In this document: positions 37,984 through 52,065 of the stretch, in pieces
How positions within the stretch are numbered: position 1 is the first letter of the stretch
Layout of the letters: every line of letters starts with the position of its first letter
From: an uncultured Gammaproteobacteria bacterium
GTDB taxonomy: Bacteria; Pseudomonadota; Gammaproteobacteria; HK1
Length of the DNA: 64,000 nucleotides
Assembly: GCA_947258715.1 (NCBI GenBank)
Contig: CAMYJH010000010.1
Location: 1-64,000 of the forward strand
Direction of reading: 5' to 3'
Translations under genes and position numbers: made by a program
The notes under the pieces: model-generated
What the model saw: only the letters and a program-made list of their open reading frames with translations
Databases searched by the model: none
What the model was told of the DNA's origin: nothing

Positions 37984-38358
37984 ATGAACATGACCGTGGC
38001 AATCGCGGCCGGTGGTGCGTTTGGCGCATTGTTTCGCTACTGGGTATCCGTGGGCGTGCACCGATTTGCGGGCGGAGGTTTTCCTTACGGCACGCTCACG
38101 GTGAACGTCGTGGGCTCGCTGCTGATGGGCACAATTTACGTGCTTTTCATCGAGCGCATGGATGTAGACCCGGTGTGGCGCGGGGCGCTGCTCATCGGTC
38201 TTCTGGGTGCGTTCACGACTTTCTCCACCTTTTCCATGGAAACGCTCAGTCTGGTCGAGAACGGCGAATCACTCAGAGCGATGCTCAATGTGGCGGCCAG
38301 CGTGGTCTTGTGCATCGTTGCCTGCTGGGTCGGCGTAGTGGCGGGAAGGCAGCTATGA
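37984..38358 (+). CDS. crcB: Fluoride channel CrcB/Fluc
   Basis: The 124-residue four-helix membrane protein dimerises in antiparallel fashion and exports fluoride. The family motifs are clear: GGAFGALFRYWVS at the start, the TVNVVGSLLMG helix 2 with its pore Asn, and GLLGAFTTFSTFSMET in helix 3 with the Phe box and the Na-binding turn. GGAG lies eight bases before the ATG at 37984. No fluoride riboswitch is recognisable in the 101 bases upstream. The stop overlaps the ATG of the DUF190 gene by four bases. Confidence 0.96.
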   Translation: MNMTVAIAAGGAFGALFRYWVSVGVHRFAGGGFPYGTLTVNVVGSLLMGTIYVLFIERMDVDPVWRGALLIGLLGAFTTFSTFSMETLSLVENGESLRAMLNVAASVVLCIVACWVGVVAGRQL

Positions 38359-38699
38359 AAGCGCAAGCGGTTACCGTGGTGAGGGTCTATCTGACTGAAG
38401 CCAGCGGCATGCTGAAGTCGCTTCTGAATTACCTGCATGACGAGAGCAAGGTGCACGGCGTCACGGTTTTCCGCGGCATAACGGGGTTTGGCAAGTCGGG
38501 TCGATATCACTCGTCTACTCTTATGGACATGTCGCTGGACCTTCCGCTGGTCATCGAATTCTTCGAGTCGCCGGAACAGGCTGCGGCCATCATTGAATAT
38601 CTGAATACCCAAGTGGAACCGGGACACATCGTTTACTGGGACGCGCACATGAATGCGGCTGGCGCCGACGGCCGCGGAGAAGACGACAGCGCACGCTAA
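38355..38699 (+). CDS. DUF190 protein (CrcB partner)
   Basis: The 114-residue soluble protein has the PII-like ferredoxin fold of DUF190. The motifs are VRVYLTEASGM, DESKVHGVTVFRGITGFGKSG and LPLVIEFFESPEQAAAII. DUF190 genes often neighbour or fuse with crcB and probably sense a ligand linked to fluoride or another anion; that role is inferred from association. The ATG is inside the crcB stop (ATGA), so the pair is coupled. The next gene, an unknown large membrane protein, follows after 66 bases on the same strand. Confidence 0.9.
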   Translation: MKAQAVTVVRVYLTEASGMLKSLLNYLHDESKVHGVTVFRGITGFGKSGRYHSSTLMDMSLDLPLVIEFFESPEQAAAIIEYLNTQVEPGHIVYWDAHMNAAGADGRGEDDSAR

Positions 38700-38765
38700 C
38701 CCCAGCGTAATCCGGCTACGTTTATAAGCACTGAATTCTTGCGGAAAACGAGGCTTGGACTACAA

Positions 38766-41700
38766 ATGGCTCCCATTCATCTAGCAGCGCGCGCGATGCG
38801 CTCCCTCATTTGCGTTGTCCTCGTTTTCTTGATCTCCGCCGCTGCCGTGCAGCCGCGGGCCGCGCCGCTTTCCGAGGAGGCCGTGCCCGAGCCGTTGAAG
38901 CCTTGGGTGGAGTGGGTGCTCCACGGCCACGAGTCGCGGCGCTGCCCTTTCGTTTATCGCGACTTTGACCGCAAGCGCTGCCTGTGGCCGGACGTGCTGG
39001 ACATTCGGGTAGACGCTTCCGGCGTGAGCTTCAGTCAGAGTTGGCGCCTGTACACCGAGGGATTCATTCCGCTTCCGGGGGATCCGTCCCTGTGGCCTCA
39101 GGACGTGCGCCTCGACGGCATTCCGACAACGGTCTCATCCAGTGACGCAACACCCAGAGTTCCCGCGTCCGCCGGCACCCATACCGTGAGCGGGCGACTG
39201 TCCTTCGACCGCGCGCCTGAGTTCTTACAGATCCCGGCCGGGACCGGGCTCATAGCGCTGCAAATTTCGGGGCGCAAAGTCGAGGCGCCGGAGCTCGATG
39301 AAAAGGGACGTCTGTGGCTCTCCGCCGATGCGGCGCGCCGGGATGGCGCGCCAGAGGTCAAAAACACGCTGGAGCTTCGCGTGTTTCGGCAGGTCGTCGA
39401 TGAGGTTCCGCTTCAGATCACCACTCGTATCGAGCTGGACGTTTCCGGCGAGCATCGTGAGGTCCTGCTTGGACCGGTGCTGGTCGCCGGCGCCATTCCA
39501 CTGTCGCTTAAAAGCGCGCTTCCCGCTCGACTGGAGCCCGACGGTCGCCTGCGGGTGCAGGTTCGCCCCGGTCGCCACGCGCTCACCGTCGCTTCCCGTC
39601 AGCCGGGCCCCGTTACCGAGTTGTCGCGTATTGAAGCGTCTGCGCCCTGGCCGGAGCCGGAGATCTGGGTGTTTGACGCCCAAAATCACTTGAGACTGGT
39701 ACAGATTGAGGGCGTTCCCAGCGTCGATCCCCGGCAAACCTCACTCCCGCCCGAGTGGCAAAACCTGCCCGCCTACCGGGTTGGGTCCGGCGATGCCTTC
39801 CGAATTGTCGTCAAGCGCCGCGGCGACCCGAAGCCCGACGCCGACCGACTTCGATTGACGCGCACCCTGTGGCTGGATTTCGACGGCGGCGGTTATACGG
39901 TCAACGACCAAATCGGCGGCCAGCTGTCGGCCAGCTGGCGTTTGGAGGCGGAGCCGGTGCTGGATCTCGGCCGGGTCGCGGTGGACGGTGAATCGTGGTT
40001 CATCACCCGCCGCACCGGCTCCGAGCGCAAAGGGGTGGAGCTTCGGCGTGGCGACCTGAACCTCTCCGCCGACGCCCGGGTCGAATCGCGCAGCGGGTTG
40101 CCCGCAGTCGGGTGGGACCACGATTTTCAATCGGTGCACGCCAGCCTGAACCTGCCGCCGGGCTGGCGGCTGTTTTCCGCCACCGGCGTCGACCGCGTCA
40201 ACCACACCTGGATCTCCCGCTGGACGTTGTTCGATCTGTTTCTGCTCCTCATCATCGCCGCCATCGCGCGAGGACTGTGGGGCTGGAAGTGGGGACTGGT
40301 GGCGTTGCTAGCCGTCGGCCTGGTGTTCCACGAGCACGGCGCGCCGCGACAGGTATGGTTGCATATCTTTGCCGCTACCGCGCTTTTGAGCGTATTGCCC
40401 CGGGGCAGGTTCTCCCGCTGGGTGGGCGTCTATCGCTACCTCGCCCTGGGCGCTTTGCTGATCATCTTCATTCCGTTCGCCGTGGACCAGTTGAGGGTAG
40501 CCCTGTTCCCACAGCTGGAACGTCCGTGGCAGGCGCAGCCGGTGAGCGCGCCGGCCAGGGGGCGGATTCAGCTTGATCAGGCGGAGCTCAAAAAGCGCGC
40601 GCGGCCGGAAGCGGCGCCGGCGCCAGGTTTAGACATGGAGGTGGACAAACCTGCCGAGACCTTGCGGGAAGCTGTTTCGAGCGCGCGCAGATCTTATTAC
40701 TCGGACGAGCTGGTGCGCATCGACCCTAAAGCAAATATTCAGACCGGACCGGGACTGCCGCGCTGGCAGTGGCAGCGCGCGGAGCTTTTATGGAACGGGC
40801 CGGTTTCCCGCGGACAGTCGTTGCAGCTTGTGTTGCTGTCCCCCGGCGTGACCCTGGTGTTGCGCCTGCTTTCTGTGGTGCTGCTTGCCCTGCTTGCGGT
40901 ACGGGCGCTGGGCGTTACGGCAAACGGACGCTTCACCTTTCGTCGCCCCGCTGGCGGCGCTACCGCGGCGGCGCTGATCGCGGCACTCATCGCCAGCGGC
41001 GTCTCGGACCCCGTCAACGCGGCTCAGGTTCCGGAACCTGCCGCTTCCAATCGACTTCCCGGCCCGGCGCTGCTCGAGGAATTGCGTCAGCGATTGCTCA
41101 AGGCGCCGGACTGCGTGCCGGGCTGCGCTGCGCTGCCGCGCATGAGTCTAGAAGTTCTCGACGAGAGCCTGATCGCTCGAATGGAAGTGCACGCGCAGGC
41201 GGAGGTCGCGGTGCCACTGCCCGGGCGTCACGGCGCCTGGCTTCCTCAGCGCGCGCAGCTAGACGGTTTTTCCGCGGACGGCGTGTTTCGCGACGACGAA
41301 GGCAATCTCTGGGTTGCGATCAAACCTGGTGTGCATCAAATCACGGTGAGCGGAAGGCTGCCGGCTCGGGAGCGGGTGGAAATCCCGCTGCCGCTGAGAC
41401 CCTACCGCGTTGAAGCCAGGGCCGACGGCTGGGAAATAGACGGTATTCACGACAACGGCGTCGTCGGCCAGCAAATTCAGCTGCGCAGAATTCGCGCCGC
41501 GGAATCCCGGCCCGAAGCCCTTGCGCCGGGAGCGCTGCCGCCCTTCGTGCGCGTTGAGCGCACGCTTTCCCTGGGCCTCGAGTGGCGTGTGGCGACGACG
41601 GTGCATCGCGTCTCGCCGCCCGGCTCGGCCATCGTGCTGGAGGTTCCGCTGATCCGCGGCGAGGCGGTGACCACCGAACGGGTGCGAGTAGAAAACGACC

Positions 41701-42935
41701 TCGTCCAGGTGAGCCTCTCCGCCAACGCCACTCAGGCAAGGTGGGACTCGGTGTTGGAGCAGCATCCCAGCTTGGAGCTGCTGGCGCCGGAGGTGACCAC
41801 GTGGACGGAAGCGTGGCAGCTCAACGCCAGTCCAATCTGGCACGTGGAGAGCTCCGGGATTCCGGTCATAAAGCAGCAAACAAATGGGCGCTGGTTTCCC
41901 CAGTGGCGTCCGTGGCCCGGAGAGCGGGTGTCCCTCAAAGTGTCACGTCCCGAAGGCGTCGAGGGGAGGACGCTCACCATAGACATTTCCGAGCTCAAGC
42001 TTAAGCCCGGTCATCGCGCGACCGACGCCGAGCTTTCCCTCGAGGTTCGGAGCAGCCAGGGCGTGCAGCATCCGATTACGCTGCCGCGGGGCGCCGAGCT
42101 ACAGTCGGTGATGATCGACGCTCGCTCCCAGCCGATACGCCAGGAGAATGGCGTCGTCACCCTGCCGCTGGACCCCGGTGCCCACAAGGTCACGCTCATG
42201 TGGCGCAGCGCGGAAGGAATATCCGCGCTGTTCAACACCCCGATGCTGGATCTCGGCGCGTCGAGCGTCAACGCGTCCACTCAGATGGAAATGCCTCGAA
42301 GCCGATGGGTGCTGTTTGCCAGCGGTCCGTCGCTGGGTCCGGCGGTGATGTTCTGGGGACTGCTGATGGTCATTGTCGCAGTTGCGCTCGGTCTCGGGCG
42401 CACCAGGCGCACACCGCTGAAGACACATCACTGGCTGCTACTCGGCGTGGGCTTGAGTCAGATACCCATTTACCTTTCCATCGTCGTGGTCGGCTGGCTG
42501 TTCGCCCTCGATGCCCGCAGCCGTCTAAATGCTGATCTACGCAAGTGGCAGTTCAATCTCATGCAGGCGGGTCTGGTGCTGCTCACCCTGGCCGCGTTGG
42601 GTCTGCTTTTCTACGCCGTCAAGCAGGGACTACTGGGTTTGCCCGAGATGCAAATAGCCGGAAACGGCTCCAGGGGGTACCTCCTGAGGTGGTTCCAGGA
42701 TCGAGCCGGCGCCGTGCCCGCGGAAGCTTGGGTGTTGTCGGTTCCGCTGACCGTTTATCGCCTGCTGATGCTCGCCTGGGCGTTATGGATTGCATTTGCG
42801 CTTCTCAGGTGGCTTCGCTGGAGCTGGGAGGCTTTCTCACGCGGCGGCTACTGGCGCTCCATTGTTATCGGTCGCCCGAAGCGCGTGCAGACGATCACAA
42901 CAGAATCGCCGCAGGATGACTCCAAGTCTACGTGA
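38766..42935 (+). CDS. Unrecognised 1389-residue membrane protein with duplicated halves
   Basis: I do not recognise a family. The ATG at 38766 is chosen because a signal-like segment follows (about 13-32); a TTG at 38739 and an ATG at 38796 are alternatives. A beta-rich N-terminal domain (about 35-480) precedes three or four membrane helices (about 485-590), then a linker and another hydrophobic pair (about 690-755) that resembles an internal signal. A second beta-rich domain (about 765-1185) leads to four or five C-terminal helices (about 1190-1365). The two beta domains share the order Cys pair, WLPQ/LWPQ, LDG and VSGRL, which indicates an internal duplication. The motif PG-x-H (or AGTH) recurs four times (about 138, 267, 854, 1136). 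It is likely an envelope complex component. Confidence 0.75.
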   Translation: MAPIHLAARAMRSLICVVLVFLISAAAVQPRAAPLSEEAVPEPLKPWVEWVLHGHESRRCPFVYRDFDRKRCLWPDVLDIRVDASGVSFSQSWRLYTEGFIPLPGDPSLWPQDVRLDGIPTTVSSSDATPRVPASAGTHTVSGRLSFDRAPEFLQIPAGTGLIALQISGRKVEAPELDEKGRLWLSADAARRDGAPEVKNTLELRVFRQVVDEVPLQITTRIELDVSGEHREVLLGPVLVAGAIPLSLKSALPARLEPDGRLRVQVRPGRHALTVASRQPGPVTELSRIEASAPWPEPEIWVFDAQNHLRLVQIEGVPSVDPRQTSLPPEWQNLPAYRVGSGDAFRIVVKRRGDPKPDADRLRLTRTLWLDFDGGGYTVNDQIGGQLSASWRLEAEPVLDLGRVAVDGESWFITRRTGSERKGVELRRGDLNLSADARVESRSGLPAVGWDHDFQSVHASLNLPPGWRLFSATGVDRVNHTWISRWTLFDLFLLLIIAAIARGLWGWKWGLVALLAVGLVFHEHGAPRQVWLHIFAATALLSVLPRGRFSRWVGVYRYLALGALLIIFIPFAVDQLRVALFPQLERPWQAQPVSAPARGRIQLDQAELKKRARPEAAPAPGLDMEVDKPAETLREAVSSARRSYYSDELVRIDPKANIQTGPGLPRWQWQRAELLWNGPVSRGQSLQLVLLSPGVTLVLRLLSVVLLALLAVRALGVTANGRFTFRRPAGGATAAALIAALIASGVSDPVNAAQVPEPAASNRLPGPALLEELRQRLLKAPDCVPGCAALPRMSLEVLDESLIARMEVHAQAEVAVPLPGRHGAWLPQRAQLDGFSADGVFRDDEGNLWVAIKPGVHQITVSGRLPARERVEIPLPLRPYRVEARADGWEIDGIHDNGVVGQQIQLRRIRAAESRPEALAPGALPPFVRVERTLSLGLEWRVATTVHRVSPPGSAIVLEVPLIRGEAVTTERVRVENDLVQVSLSANATQARWDSVLEQHPSLELLAPEVTTWTEAWQLNASPIWHVESSGIPVIKQQTNGRWFPQWRPWPGERVSLKVSRPEGVEGRTLTIDISELKLKPGHRATDAELSLEVRSSQGVQHPITLPRGAELQSVMIDARSQPIRQENGVVTLPLDPGAHKVTLMWRSAEGISALFNTPMLDLGASSVNASTQMEMPRSRWVLFASGPSLGPAVMFWGLLMVIVAVALGLGRTRRTPLKTHHWLLLGVGLSQIPIYLSIVVVGWLFALDARSRLNADLRKWQFNLMQAGLVLLTLAALGLLFYAVKQGLLGLPEMQIAGNGSRGYLLRWFQDRAGAVPAEAWVLSVPLTVYRLLMLAWALWIAFALLRWLRWSWEAFSRGGYWRSIVIGRPKRVQTITTESPQDDSKST

Positions 42936-43222: not shown

Positions 43223-43452
43223 GAGGTGCCACCCCGAGTGCCGCTTCCAGACGCGCTTGGAAGCCTTCAGTCAGGCGGCTCAGCGGATCTGCGCCGATGC
43301 CCGACGGGGCGCTTGCTTTAACAGCAATGATCATTGACCCACGGCTTGCTGCTATCCTTGCGCCTGAGCGCTGGCCAAAGCTCGCGTACGGCGCTCCAGC
43401 GACTGATTCAGCGCGGCGCCGAGCCGTTTCTCATCGCTTCCGGGTCAGGATC

Positions 43453-44928
43453 GTGATCGAACAGTACTGGGAAGGCTTCAAGCTTCTGTTGTGGAATTCC
43501 GTCTGGGCGGTGAACGTGGCGGCGTTGCCCCCGGCACGCGCCTATGCCGTTCGCACCGCGCGGGTGTGCCACACGCTGATTCGCGAATTCGTCGACGGTG
43601 AGCTCAATCAGCGCGCCGCCAGCCTCGTCTTTACTACCCTGCTTTCCCTGGTGCCGCTGCTGGCGGTGAGCTTTTCCGTACTCAAAGCCTTCGGAGTGCA
43701 CAACGATCTGGAACAGGTGCTGATCGGTTTTCTTGCCCCGCTGGGTGACAAGGGTATCGAGCTCGGTGACCGCATTATGGCTTTCGTCGACAACGTGAAC
43801 GGGCGGGTGCTCGGAGGCATCGGTCTTACGCTACTCATGCTCACGGTGTTGTCGCTGGTGCACAAGGTCGAGCGATCCTTCAACTACATCTGGCGCGTCG
43901 AGCGGCCGCGGGGATTTATCGAACGTTTCAGCGGATATCTGAGCGCTTTGCTGGTCGGTCCCGTGCTGATCTTCACCGCGCTCGGAGTCACCGCGTCGAT
44001 CATGCATACGTCCCTGATGCAGGAGATTATTGCCATCGAGCCGCTCGGCACCGTCATCAAGTGGCTCATCAGCATGATTCCTTATCTGCTGGTGATCACG
44101 GCTTTTACCCTGGTCTACGTTTTCGTTCCCAATACCAAGGTCCAGATCCGCGCCGCGTTTGTCGGCGCCGTTATCGCTGGGATATTGTGGGAATCAGCCG
44201 GCTGGAGCTTTGCGTCTTTCGTCGCCAATTCACCCAGGCACGCGGCGATATATTCCAGCTTCGCCGTGGCTTTCCTGTTCATGATCTGGCTCTACGTTGC
44301 CTGGCTGATCCTTTTGGTCGGCGCCACCGTGGCGTTCTTCATTCAGCATCCCGAGTACCATGGCATGCCCGACCGGGTGATCACGCTGAGCAATCGCATG
44401 CGGGAGAAATTGGCGACGCTGGCCGTCTTTCGTATCGCCCAGCATCACGTCCACGGGGGTCCGCCGGTCTCGGTCAGCCGGCTTTCACTGCAGCTCGGTG
44501 TCCCGGTGGCGGCGCTGGAAGACGTGCTGGACGAGCTCGTCAGCCGCGGGCTGCTGGTCGAGGTCAGCGGCCAGGAAGTGGCTTACGTACCCGGGCGTGA
44601 CGTCTCCAGTATCAGCATGAACGAGGTGTGGACGGCTATTCGGGTTGCCAGCGAGTCCCACTGGATCTCTCATGATCGCATGCGGATCGATGCCGCGGTG
44701 GAGGAACTGATCGGGAAAATGGACGATGCCGTTGCCGGCGTCATCGGCAGCATGACGCTTAAGGACCTAGTGTCCGATCATCCGCCGGAGCAGCGAGTGA
44801 AACAAGAAGTGGCGACCGACGAAGGGTCATTGGAAACAAACGAGCCAATAGAACGGTCTCGTCCGTCCGCGGCTGAGCCCGTGCCCATCAGTTCGGCAAA
44901 GCGGGATCGCGAAGGGCGAATAGATTGA
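43453..44928 (+). CDS. YihY/BrkB-family inner-membrane protein
   Basis: About six membrane helices make up the YihY domain (residues about 30-310), with the family blocks RAASLVFTTLLSLVPLLAVSFSVL, SFNYIWRVERPRGF and ASFVANSPRHAAIYSSFA. The older name ribonuclease BN is a misannotation; the function is unknown and transport has been suggested. A C-terminal soluble region (about 340-420) has the look of a winged helix (SVSRLSLQLGVPVAALEDVL). A charged tail follows. From the GTG at 43453 it has 491 residues; ATGs at 43297 and 43327 would add an N-terminus of poor composition that overlaps repeats, so the start is uncertain. Confidence 0.82.
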   Translation: MIEQYWEGFKLLLWNSVWAVNVAALPPARAYAVRTARVCHTLIREFVDGELNQRAASLVFTTLLSLVPLLAVSFSVLKAFGVHNDLEQVLIGFLAPLGDKGIELGDRIMAFVDNVNGRVLGGIGLTLLMLTVLSLVHKVERSFNYIWRVERPRGFIERFSGYLSALLVGPVLIFTALGVTASIMHTSLMQEIIAIEPLGTVIKWLISMIPYLLVITAFTLVYVFVPNTKVQIRAAFVGAVIAGILWESAGWSFASFVANSPRHAAIYSSFAVAFLFMIWLYVAWLILLVGATVAFFIQHPEYHGMPDRVITLSNRMREKLATLAVFRIAQHHVHGGPPVSVSRLSLQLGVPVAALEDVLDELVSRGLLVEVSGQEVAYVPGRDVSSISMNEVWTAIRVASESHWISHDRMRIDAAVEELIGKMDDAVAGVIGSMTLKDLVSDHPPEQRVKQEVATDEGSLETNEPIERSRPSAAEPVPISSAKRDREGRID

Positions 44929-50238: not shown

Positions 50239-51177
50239 TCAGACCTCCAAGCTGGCAATTTGCCGCCATCTCTCGGGGCCGTGGCCGAAGTCGAAGTGAT
50301 CGGGGTGCAGCGCCTGGGTGATGATCTCCAGGGAATCCGCTAGTCTGGGGCCCGGTCGGTTAAAGAAGTGGTGGCCGTCAGCGGCGAAACAGCGGCTGTT
50401 CTTGACCGCGGTCAGGTTATCCCATCCTTCCAGTTGTTCAAGAGCCTTAGCTTCCTTCAGCGTCCGATTCAGATTGAAACCGCAGGGGCTGATAAGAATG
50501 GCGTCTGGATCGGCGGCGCGCAGCTCCTGCCACTGGAGTTGCGGCGAATGCTTGCCGGTTTCTCCAAACAGGTTTTCGGCGCCCGCCATTTCCACCAGCT
50601 CGGGCATCCAGTTGCCGCCCGACATCAGCGGGTCGATCCACTCTATGGTCGCAACCCGCGGGTGATTTCCAAGAACCGCCGTTCGCTCCTTAATCGAGCG
50701 CATGCGGCTGCGAAGCACGTCGACTATCTTGTCGCCATGGTGTCTGACGCCCAGGGCCTCGGCGACGCGGCGGATATCCCTCAGCACGTCTTCGACCACA
50801 TTGGGCGATAGCGACACGATCTCGGGTCTGGCCTCAGTCCATTCGTGCACCGCCCGCCTCAATTGCTTTTCGCTTACCGCGCAGACCTCGCACTGGGTCT
50901 GCGTAATGATGAAGTCCGGCTTGAGCGACTTGAGCGTGTCCTCCTGCACCTCGTACACGGAGAGACCGCGGCGAACGATGTCTCGAATCCCGTCATCGAC
51001 CTCGCGGCTATTGCCGTCCACCTCGACCCTGGGCGAGGAACAAACCGGGAGATCCTCCACCGCCTCGGGGTAGTCACACTCGTGAGAGCGCCCCACCAGG
51101 TTGTTCCTGAAGCCCACGGCGCACACGATTTCCGTGGCGCTGGGAAGCAGGGAGACGATTCGCGGCGATACGGCCAT
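50239..51177 (-). CDS. BtuF-like cobalamin/metal receptor without signal peptide (1)
   Basis: The 312-residue protein has the helical-backbone metal-receptor fold of type III binding proteins. The beginning RIVSLLPSATEIVCAVGF is the BtuF/FecB-type first strand and comes within ten residues of the Met, so there is no signal peptide or lipobox. Other family segments are KPDFIITQTQCEVCAVS, EWIDPLMSGGNWMPELVEMAGAEN and DPDAILISPCGFNLNRT. The Cys-x-x-Cys in QCEVCAV could bind metal. A cytoplasmic place is therefore likely, unlike classical BtuF. No btuCD genes are nearby. A similar gene lies 69 bases upstream. Confidence 0.85.
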   Translation of the reverse strand: MAVSPRIVSLLPSATEIVCAVGFRNNLVGRSHECDYPEAVEDLPVCSSPRVEVDGNSREVDDGIRDIVRRGLSVYEVQEDTLKSLKPDFIITQTQCEVCAVSEKQLRRAVHEWTEARPEIVSLSPNVVEDVLRDIRRVAEALGVRHHGDKIVDVLRSRMRSIKERTAVLGNHPRVATIEWIDPLMSGGNWMPELVEMAGAENLFGETGKHSPQLQWQELRAADPDAILISPCGFNLNRTLKEAKALEQLEGWDNLTAVKNSRCFAADGHHFFNRPGPRLADSLEIITQALHPDHFDFGHGPERWRQIASLEV

Positions 51178-51246
51178 GTGCGGCGTGAGCAGATACTCGA
51201 AAGGACTTCTGGAATTATAGAGCGCGCTGGCGTTTTGTACCGGAAT

Positions 51247-52065
51247 CTAGCGTGTCGGCAGCTCCGCCGCGAAGGACTCGAGATAACGTAAACCCGGGAT
51301 GGCGCGTGGTCCGTACCAGGACACCATCTCTGCATCGATGGCGCTGATTGGAACCGGCCATCGCTGGGTGAGGGCGCGCACTTCTTCCACGTGATTTTGC
51401 TTGAAAGGAAACGGTTCGCTGCTCATCAGCACGGCGTCCACCTGATCCATCAGGGTCTCGTCGAATTCGATTTCCGGGTAGCGCACGTCCGCCCGTCCTC
51501 CCATCGATTTCAGTCCGGCAAGCGCCAGCGTCCTGGAGATATAGGTGTCTTCGGATATGGTCATCCATGGGTCGCGCCAGATGAGGTAAAGCACATTTCG
51601 TTGCGGCAGGTTCTTGGCCCTGTCCAGCAGCGATTCGTGGGCCTGTTCGAAATCCCGGCAAAGCGTTTCCGCCGCTTCCTCTCGACCGAAAATCCCGCCC
51701 AGAAGCCGGTAAAGGCGAAGGTTGTCCGTAGGCTGAAGTGGATGGGTGACGACGATGCTGCATCCCCACTGCGCCATCGCGTCCACGTCCTGCTTGCGAT
51801 TTTCGTCTACGTTGACGACGACGTGGGTCGGAGAAAGTGCCTTCACCCTCTCGAGCCTGACCGTCTTCGTCCCGCCGACTCTGGCGATCGACTCCACCTC
51901 CCTGTTTGGATGCACGCAAAAGTTCGTTCGACCGACGAGCTCATTTTTGAGTCCGAGGGCAATGACGAGCTCGGTGATGCTCGGAACCAGTGAGACGACG
52001 CGGACCTCTCCTTGGGCCGGCCGGTGGGCCACACCGATGTCGTCGATGAGTGCCTTCTGCGTCAC
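51247..52065 (-). CDS. BtuF-like cobalamin/metal receptor without signal peptide (2)
   Basis: The 272-residue paralogue of the preceding protein starts with about 20 residues of non-hydrophobic sequence before VRVVSLVPSITELVIALGL, so it also lacks an export signal. The recognisable blocks are KALSPTHVVVNVDENRK, LYLIWRDPWMTISEDTYISRTLALAGL and FDETLMDQVDAVLMSSEPFPF. It is shorter than its neighbour, with clear divergence outside the core strands. It begins five bases after the DUF2889 gene ends, so the two are cotranscribed. Confidence 0.85.
   Translation of the reverse strand: MTQKALIDDIGVAHRPAQGEVRVVSLVPSITELVIALGLKNELVGRTNFCVHPNREVESIARVGGTKTVRLERVKALSPTHVVVNVDENRKQDVDAMAQWGCSIVVTHPLQPTDNLRLYRLLGGIFGREEAAETLCRDFEQAHESLLDRAKNLPQRNVLYLIWRDPWMTISEDTYISRTLALAGLKSMGGRADVRYPEIEFDETLMDQVDAVLMSSEPFPFKQNHVEEVRALTQRWPVPISAIDAEMVSWYGPRAIPGLRYLESFAAELPTR

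Follow-up and report, generated by a model that had tools for sequence, protein, structure and literature searches.

The 64,000-nucleotide stretch analysed here (the window; positions 1 to 64,000 of contig CAMYJH010000010.1, assembly GCA_947258715.1, from an uncultured Gammaproteobacteria bacterium of the GTDB lineage HK1) carries at 38766-42935, on the forward strand, an open reading frame (ORF) of 1389 residues that starts at an ATG; a TTG at 38739, upstream of this ATG, is likewise open. The ORF is real, with full-length homologues in other genomes that are nearly always one ORF of about 1350-1450 residues, and the gene is present in a single copy in its own genome. In it an ancestral membrane protein occurs twice, end to end, each copy with a large periplasmic region and a membrane block, and the segment that joins the two copies resembles a second, complete signal peptide. 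The features described below all lie on the forward strand of the window.

The duplication is confirmed by profile comparison. When profiles of residues 36-600 (half 1) and 755-1389 (half 2), built from 37 homologues, were compared with each other, they matched with an E-value of 4.8e-15 and a score of 127.6 over 478 collinear columns, while ten column-shuffled control profiles scored 24 or less and reversed-profile controls scored 19-24. A stricter choice of columns gave an E-value of 2.7e-14, and the beta regions alone an E-value of 6.6e-12. The similarity between the transmembrane parts of the half profiles, compared alone, is not significant, so that the homology of these parts is argued from collinearity and from the predicted layout, in which they occur in the same order in both half structures. 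Within the focal sequence alone the halves compare weakly (BLASTP E-value 0.009 over 23 residues), and the profile of the C-terminal half weakly matches the N-terminal halves encoded in other genomes (E-values of 3e-4 to 8e-4). The first-pass annotation, which was made from the DNA letters, had proposed that the two related halves arose when an ancestral gene was joined to its own copy, each half contributing a periplasmic module and a membrane block. The checks that it called for, profile self-comparison, structure prediction and a look for half-length homologues, all turned out in favour of this proposal, the last of them by way of a secondary split described below.

AlphaFold2 models of each half, computed from 37-row alignments, have mean predicted local distance difference test (pLDDT) scores of 84.7 for half 1 and 81.6 for half 2, and are nearly identical in layout: a signal peptide, a Cys pair, beta domains of about 400 residues, four transmembrane helices, a beta hairpin and one further transmembrane helix. 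In half 1, the predicted N-terminal signal peptide (residues about 1-33; 38766-38864), recognised from hydropathy, aligned N-termini and a signal-peptidase-type motif, is followed by a periplasmic all-beta region (residues 66-473; 38961-40184), which overlaps the first part of a beta-saddle (residues 358-480; 39837-40205). Four transmembrane helices come next (residues 488-580; 40227-40505; model helices 453-545, in agreement with hydropathy), then a poorly conserved linker modelled at low confidence (residues 585-655; 40518-40730; pLDDT below 50), a beta hairpin of the pattern TGPGxPxWxW...WxGPV that completes the saddle (residues 670-691; 40773-40838; model strands 635-640 and 650-656; P665 and W667 invariant) and a fifth transmembrane helix, TM5, supported by the model and by hydropathy (residues 693-714; 40842-40907). 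The same order is predicted for half 2, in which the periplasmic all-beta region (residues 788-1186; 41127-42323), with the first part of its saddle (residues 1067-1186; 41964-42323), leads into four transmembrane helices (residues 1196-1290; 42351-42635; model and hydropathy), the saddle-completing hairpin (residues 1306-1327; 42681-42746; model strands 657-665 and 673-678) and a last transmembrane helix (residues 1328-1358; 42747-42839).

Structural searches with these models return two kinds of match. In Foldseek, chains of oligosaccharyltransferase complexes rank first for half 1 (E-value 9.9e-8) and supply all of the top eight matches to half 2 (lowest E-value 1.7e-8), with M1 aminopeptidase N-terminal domains ranking after them for both halves; the result table names the complex only, and the chains are taken here to be Ost1/ribophorin I. 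Alignment to the same chains with VIA-align gives Z-scores of 12.9 (half 1) and 15.8 (half 2) at a root-mean-square deviation (rmsd) that is large, as the alignment takes in several domains together. The saddles themselves superpose more closely: that of half 1 aligns to M1 N-terminal domains with a Z-score of about 12, at 3.0-3.5 Å over 141-149 residues (model range 323-656), and that of half 2 to an M1 aminopeptidase N-terminal domain with a Z-score of 14.9, at 2.7 Å over 149 residues (model range 418-677). A single M1-type saddle in each half is thus well supported by the models, and, since the match runs from upstream of the four-helix bundle into the hairpin that follows it, the bundle appears to be inserted into the saddle.

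The predicted structure may share with Ost1/ribophorin I a tandem of M1-N-like beta domains that lies across the membrane, on its far side, and leads into a transmembrane helix, but it differs in that four transmembrane helices are inserted before the last hairpin and in that the whole unit is duplicated. Compared with M1 aminopeptidases, the second domain of each half superposes on the N-terminal beta-saddle at about 3 Å over 141-150 residues, whereas the saddle of the focal protein is split by the transmembrane bundle; an M1 aminopeptidase itself was rejected, as the focal protein has neither an HExxH motif nor a Pfam match to the catalytic domain. A further match of half 2, to a chain of the glycosylphosphatidylinositol (GPI) transamidase presumed to be PIG-T (8imx_T; Foldseek E-value 8.9e-5), again concerns a beta scaffold of a membrane complex, but the overall superposition is low (TM-score 0.11-0.13). 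The likeness to Ost1 and to the M1 saddle is one of fold and not of family membership.

The small motifs named in the first-pass annotation fared unevenly. The Cys pairs at residues 60/72 (38943-38981) and 783/787 (41112-41126, in a CxxxCA motif) are invariant in 37/37 homologues, and the former probably forms a disulfide. The four ‘PGxH strands’, in contrast, are mostly accidental: among the 37 homologues their Gly residues are mostly conserved turns, while the His is replaced by Trp in 33 at the site at 268, is mostly Ala at 819 and is Gln in 28 at 1137. Only His 857 is kept (34 of the 37); the Pro preceding it is not conserved, and the site aligns with G-x-H at 137-139 of half 1. Nor is there support for small beta-sandwich domains of the PEGA type, which were rejected because no Pfam PEGA match was found for the focal protein at E-values up to 10 or for the 37 homologues at E-values up to 1, and because the predicted fold is the beta-saddle resembling Ost1 and the M1 aminopeptidase N-terminal domain.

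The hydrophobic stretch between the halves, also picked out in that annotation, proves to be signal-peptide-like throughout the family. Residues 719-752 (40920-41021) resemble a complete signal peptide, as do the corresponding residues in nearly all homologues, with a predicted signal peptidase I cut after the VNA at 750-752 (between A752 and A753). When the roughly 12 residues that follow the hydrophobic core were scored for the motif [AVSGTLI]xA in 86 nonredundant homologues, it was present in 83 of them, a frequency comparable with that at the N-terminal signal peptides of these proteins, the positive control (57/61), and far above that of the helix just before the internal signal peptide, the negative control (35/85; Fisher P 1.6e-16), or of other hydrophobic segments (431/1070). 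Shuffled c-regions of the same residues carry the motif at a rate of 69% (binomial P 1.5e-10 for 83/86), although these P values count related homologues as more independent than they are. The linker after the motif varies from about 5 to more than 60 residues while the motif stays beside the hydrophobic core. The net charge around the core, +2.7 before and -1.3 after, fits an N-in/C-out orientation. Since conservation of this signal peptidase I motif suggests that there are two mature chains, the description of the product as one polypeptide is doubtful.

Half-length versions of the gene are found in one genome, G048, where half 1 is a 713-residue gene whose stop closely follows TM5, and the 685-residue gene for half 2 lies on another contig and has its own signal peptide MNFKRKFTYFHLCVWLVGNLFAALTYA. 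Both genes are intact, lie mid-contig and are each preceded by a Shine-Dalgarno-like sequence. In a tree, both branch from within the fused genes of their own family, and half 1 adjoins the kfrA-like gene that also lies beside the fused gene at loci L151, L153, L154 and L158; the kept neighbour and the nesting show that the split is a secondary fission, with half 2 relocated, and not an ancestral single-unit gene. The G048 genes show that each half can be maintained as a protein of its own. Other apparent splits were set aside, as those in G314, G317, G370 and G792 come, or may come, from breaks between contigs and that in G246 looks like a frameshift. The homologue in G793 (locus L151, G793:C11:796500-805000) is not naturally split but disrupted by a transposase gene within the first transmembrane helix of half 1, about 4.2-5.3 kb from the left end of the locus; the disruption is recent-looking, and the inserted gene resembles what we take to be an IS630-type transposase.

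Homologues were detected in 54 of 369 sampled genomes of the same class (about 15%) and in 28 of 398 sampled across the phylum, with none in the other 16 sampled genomes of the same order. Carriers include metagenome-assembled genomes of Methylomonas, Thiotrichaceae, Ectothiorhodospiraceae, Acidiferrobacterales and Magnetococcales, as well as the plasmid pAZKH of Azoarcus sp. KH32C, and identity between families of the protein is often 45-50%. Short extra matches that lie near or away from the main gene, to the last transmembrane region in G795, G774 and G093 and to residues 37-65 in G787, are perhaps gene remnants. For the focal protein, no credible match was obtained in Pfam, NCBIfam or PADLOC (whose anti-phage defence models gave no match), nor in a sequence search of the PDB; profile and member-by-member searches with both halves returned scattered, chance-level matches only, and literature searches found nothing on this protein family. 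The focal protein thus belongs to a widespread, unnamed family of envelope proteins that is apparently unstudied.

In the window, the gene is preceded by a CrcB family gene and a DUF190 gene (37984-38699), which are not kept beside homologues, and is followed by a gene (43297-44928) for a membrane protein of the BrkB type that ends in an Rrf2-like C-terminal stretch; further downstream, two tandem and mutually similar Peripla_BP_2 binding-protein genes lie on the reverse strand (50239-52065). Elsewhere, a divergent coiled-coil gene, named kfrA-like by eye, flanks the gene in family f33 (L116, L151, L153, L154 and L158), and on pAZKH (L159) a divergent gene for an FKBP-type prolyl isomerase lies upstream of the homologue, which overlaps an isoaspartyl peptidase gene downstream.

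The reading to which these results lead, and to which we would give an even chance, is that the gene product is a polyprotein from which cutting by signal peptidase I releases two paralogous subunits of the inner membrane, and that these together make up a non-enzymatic scaffold in the periplasm. The wider proposal, that such a polyprotein is widespread, that its paralogous subunits carry Ost1-like saddles interrupted by the transmembrane bundle, and that it is an architectural relative of scaffold subunits in the endoplasmic reticulum (ER), is put forward more tentatively. Several observations weigh against one or other part of these proposals. The cleavage motif is no proof of cutting, as the segment could remain an uncut signal anchor, and its high rate in shuffled c-regions reflects the Ala-richness of the family. 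Clearly split genes occur in G048 only, a draft assembly. Superposition of whole chains on Ost1 is weak (TM-score 0.29 or less, rmsd 10-26 Å), and unrelated proteins also contain M1-like saddles. No neighbour is conserved across 37 loci of homologues, and STT3 is present in 1 of 80 genomes and absent from the focal genome; with neither a conserved neighbour nor an STT3 partner, the scaffold role is therefore argued solely from the fold and the missing catalytic motifs. An uncut protein, which we consider doubtful, would use the internal segment as a signal anchor (TM6) returning half 2 to the periplasmic side, giving a single chain with pseudo-symmetry of the kind seen in internal duplications like that of SecY. 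A transmembrane segment is required at this point by the topology, cut or not, and the fusion is kept in nearly all genomes, both of which suit such a chain; an anchor, however, needs no small residues at -3 and -1, yet the motif is as common here as at the N-terminus and much commoner than after the preceding helix, and G048 keeps the halves as intact, separate genes.

The structural matches raise a more specific possibility, that the protein is a bacterial counterpart of the ER scaffold subunits Ost1/ribophorin I and PIG-T, with saddles that would keep a substrate or an enzyme in place within a lipid-linked transfer complex such as one for exosortase-type C-terminal processing or glycan transfer. 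Ost1 is among the best matches of both halves, the presumed PIG-T chain is among the top matches of half 2, and exosortase is somewhat commoner in carriers (22/41 versus 12/39; Fisher P 0.045, uncorrected for relatedness), a weak enrichment. Such a role is nevertheless improbable, given that nearly all carriers of the family lack STT3, that no gene linkage is seen across loci and that Ribophorin_I is absent from the Pfam matches of 37 family members at E-values up to 1. An obligate exosortase/PEP-CTERM partner was rejected, as exosortase is missing in 19 of 41 carriers including the focal genome, and no transamidase-like neighbour was found. Very improbable is a duplicated envelope-integrity protein of the CreD type (PF06123): CreD is likewise an inner-membrane protein, with a periplasmic region and C-terminal transmembrane helices, its layout looks alike by eye (a periplasmic beta region, then transmembrane helices) and there are short look-alike stretches around HWLLLGVGLS, but a 12-sequence CreD alignment drawn from several phyla scores only 18-24 in hhalign against either half, which is not significant, and the focal genome has no CreD.

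To return to the polyprotein, the duplication, the fold class, the conserved cleavage motif and the natural division of the halves between two genes are results of computation, and we infer cleavage, pairing of the products as a heterodimer and a scaffold role. The gene is the product of an ancient duplication in which a membrane protein bearing a signal peptide was fused head to tail with its copy. The N-terminal signal peptide would bring the precursor into the membrane, where half 1 would place its periplasmic beta-saddle domains around a 4+1 transmembrane block and end in the cytoplasm, and the internal signal peptide would re-initiate export of half 2. A cut by signal peptidase I after VNA (A752) would then yield two mature inner-membrane subunits in a 1:1 ratio, with the internal hydrophobic core probably remaining on the first subunit as its last transmembrane helix. 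The two paralogous subunits would probably assemble as a pseudo-symmetric complex, whose large, disulfide-stapled and non-enzymatic periplasmic face may serve as a docking scaffold or chaperone, in the manner of the Ost1- and PIG-T-like saddles in membrane complexes of the ER. A parallel is FbcH of Bradyrhizobium japonicum, in which a single precursor containing an internal signal peptide gives rise to cytochromes b and c1 and the cutting is documented (our literature search found no paper on FbcH processing). Both cases involve one bacterial gene, an internal signal peptide and two membrane subunits, but the parts of FbcH are unrelated cytochromes, whereas those of the focal protein are paralogues and their cutting is predicted.

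The family thus represents a large, well-conserved envelope protein, found in roughly one in seven of the sampled genomes of its class, and the protein-family libraries searched hold nothing of its shape. If the internal site is cut, it would add a new example to the cellular polyproteins of bacteria, one built from two copies of the same ancestral gene, and its natural split form opens the two-chain model to direct test. A further question, prompted by the Ost1-like fold, is whether M1-type saddles act as scaffolds of membrane complexes in bacteria, as they do in the ER.

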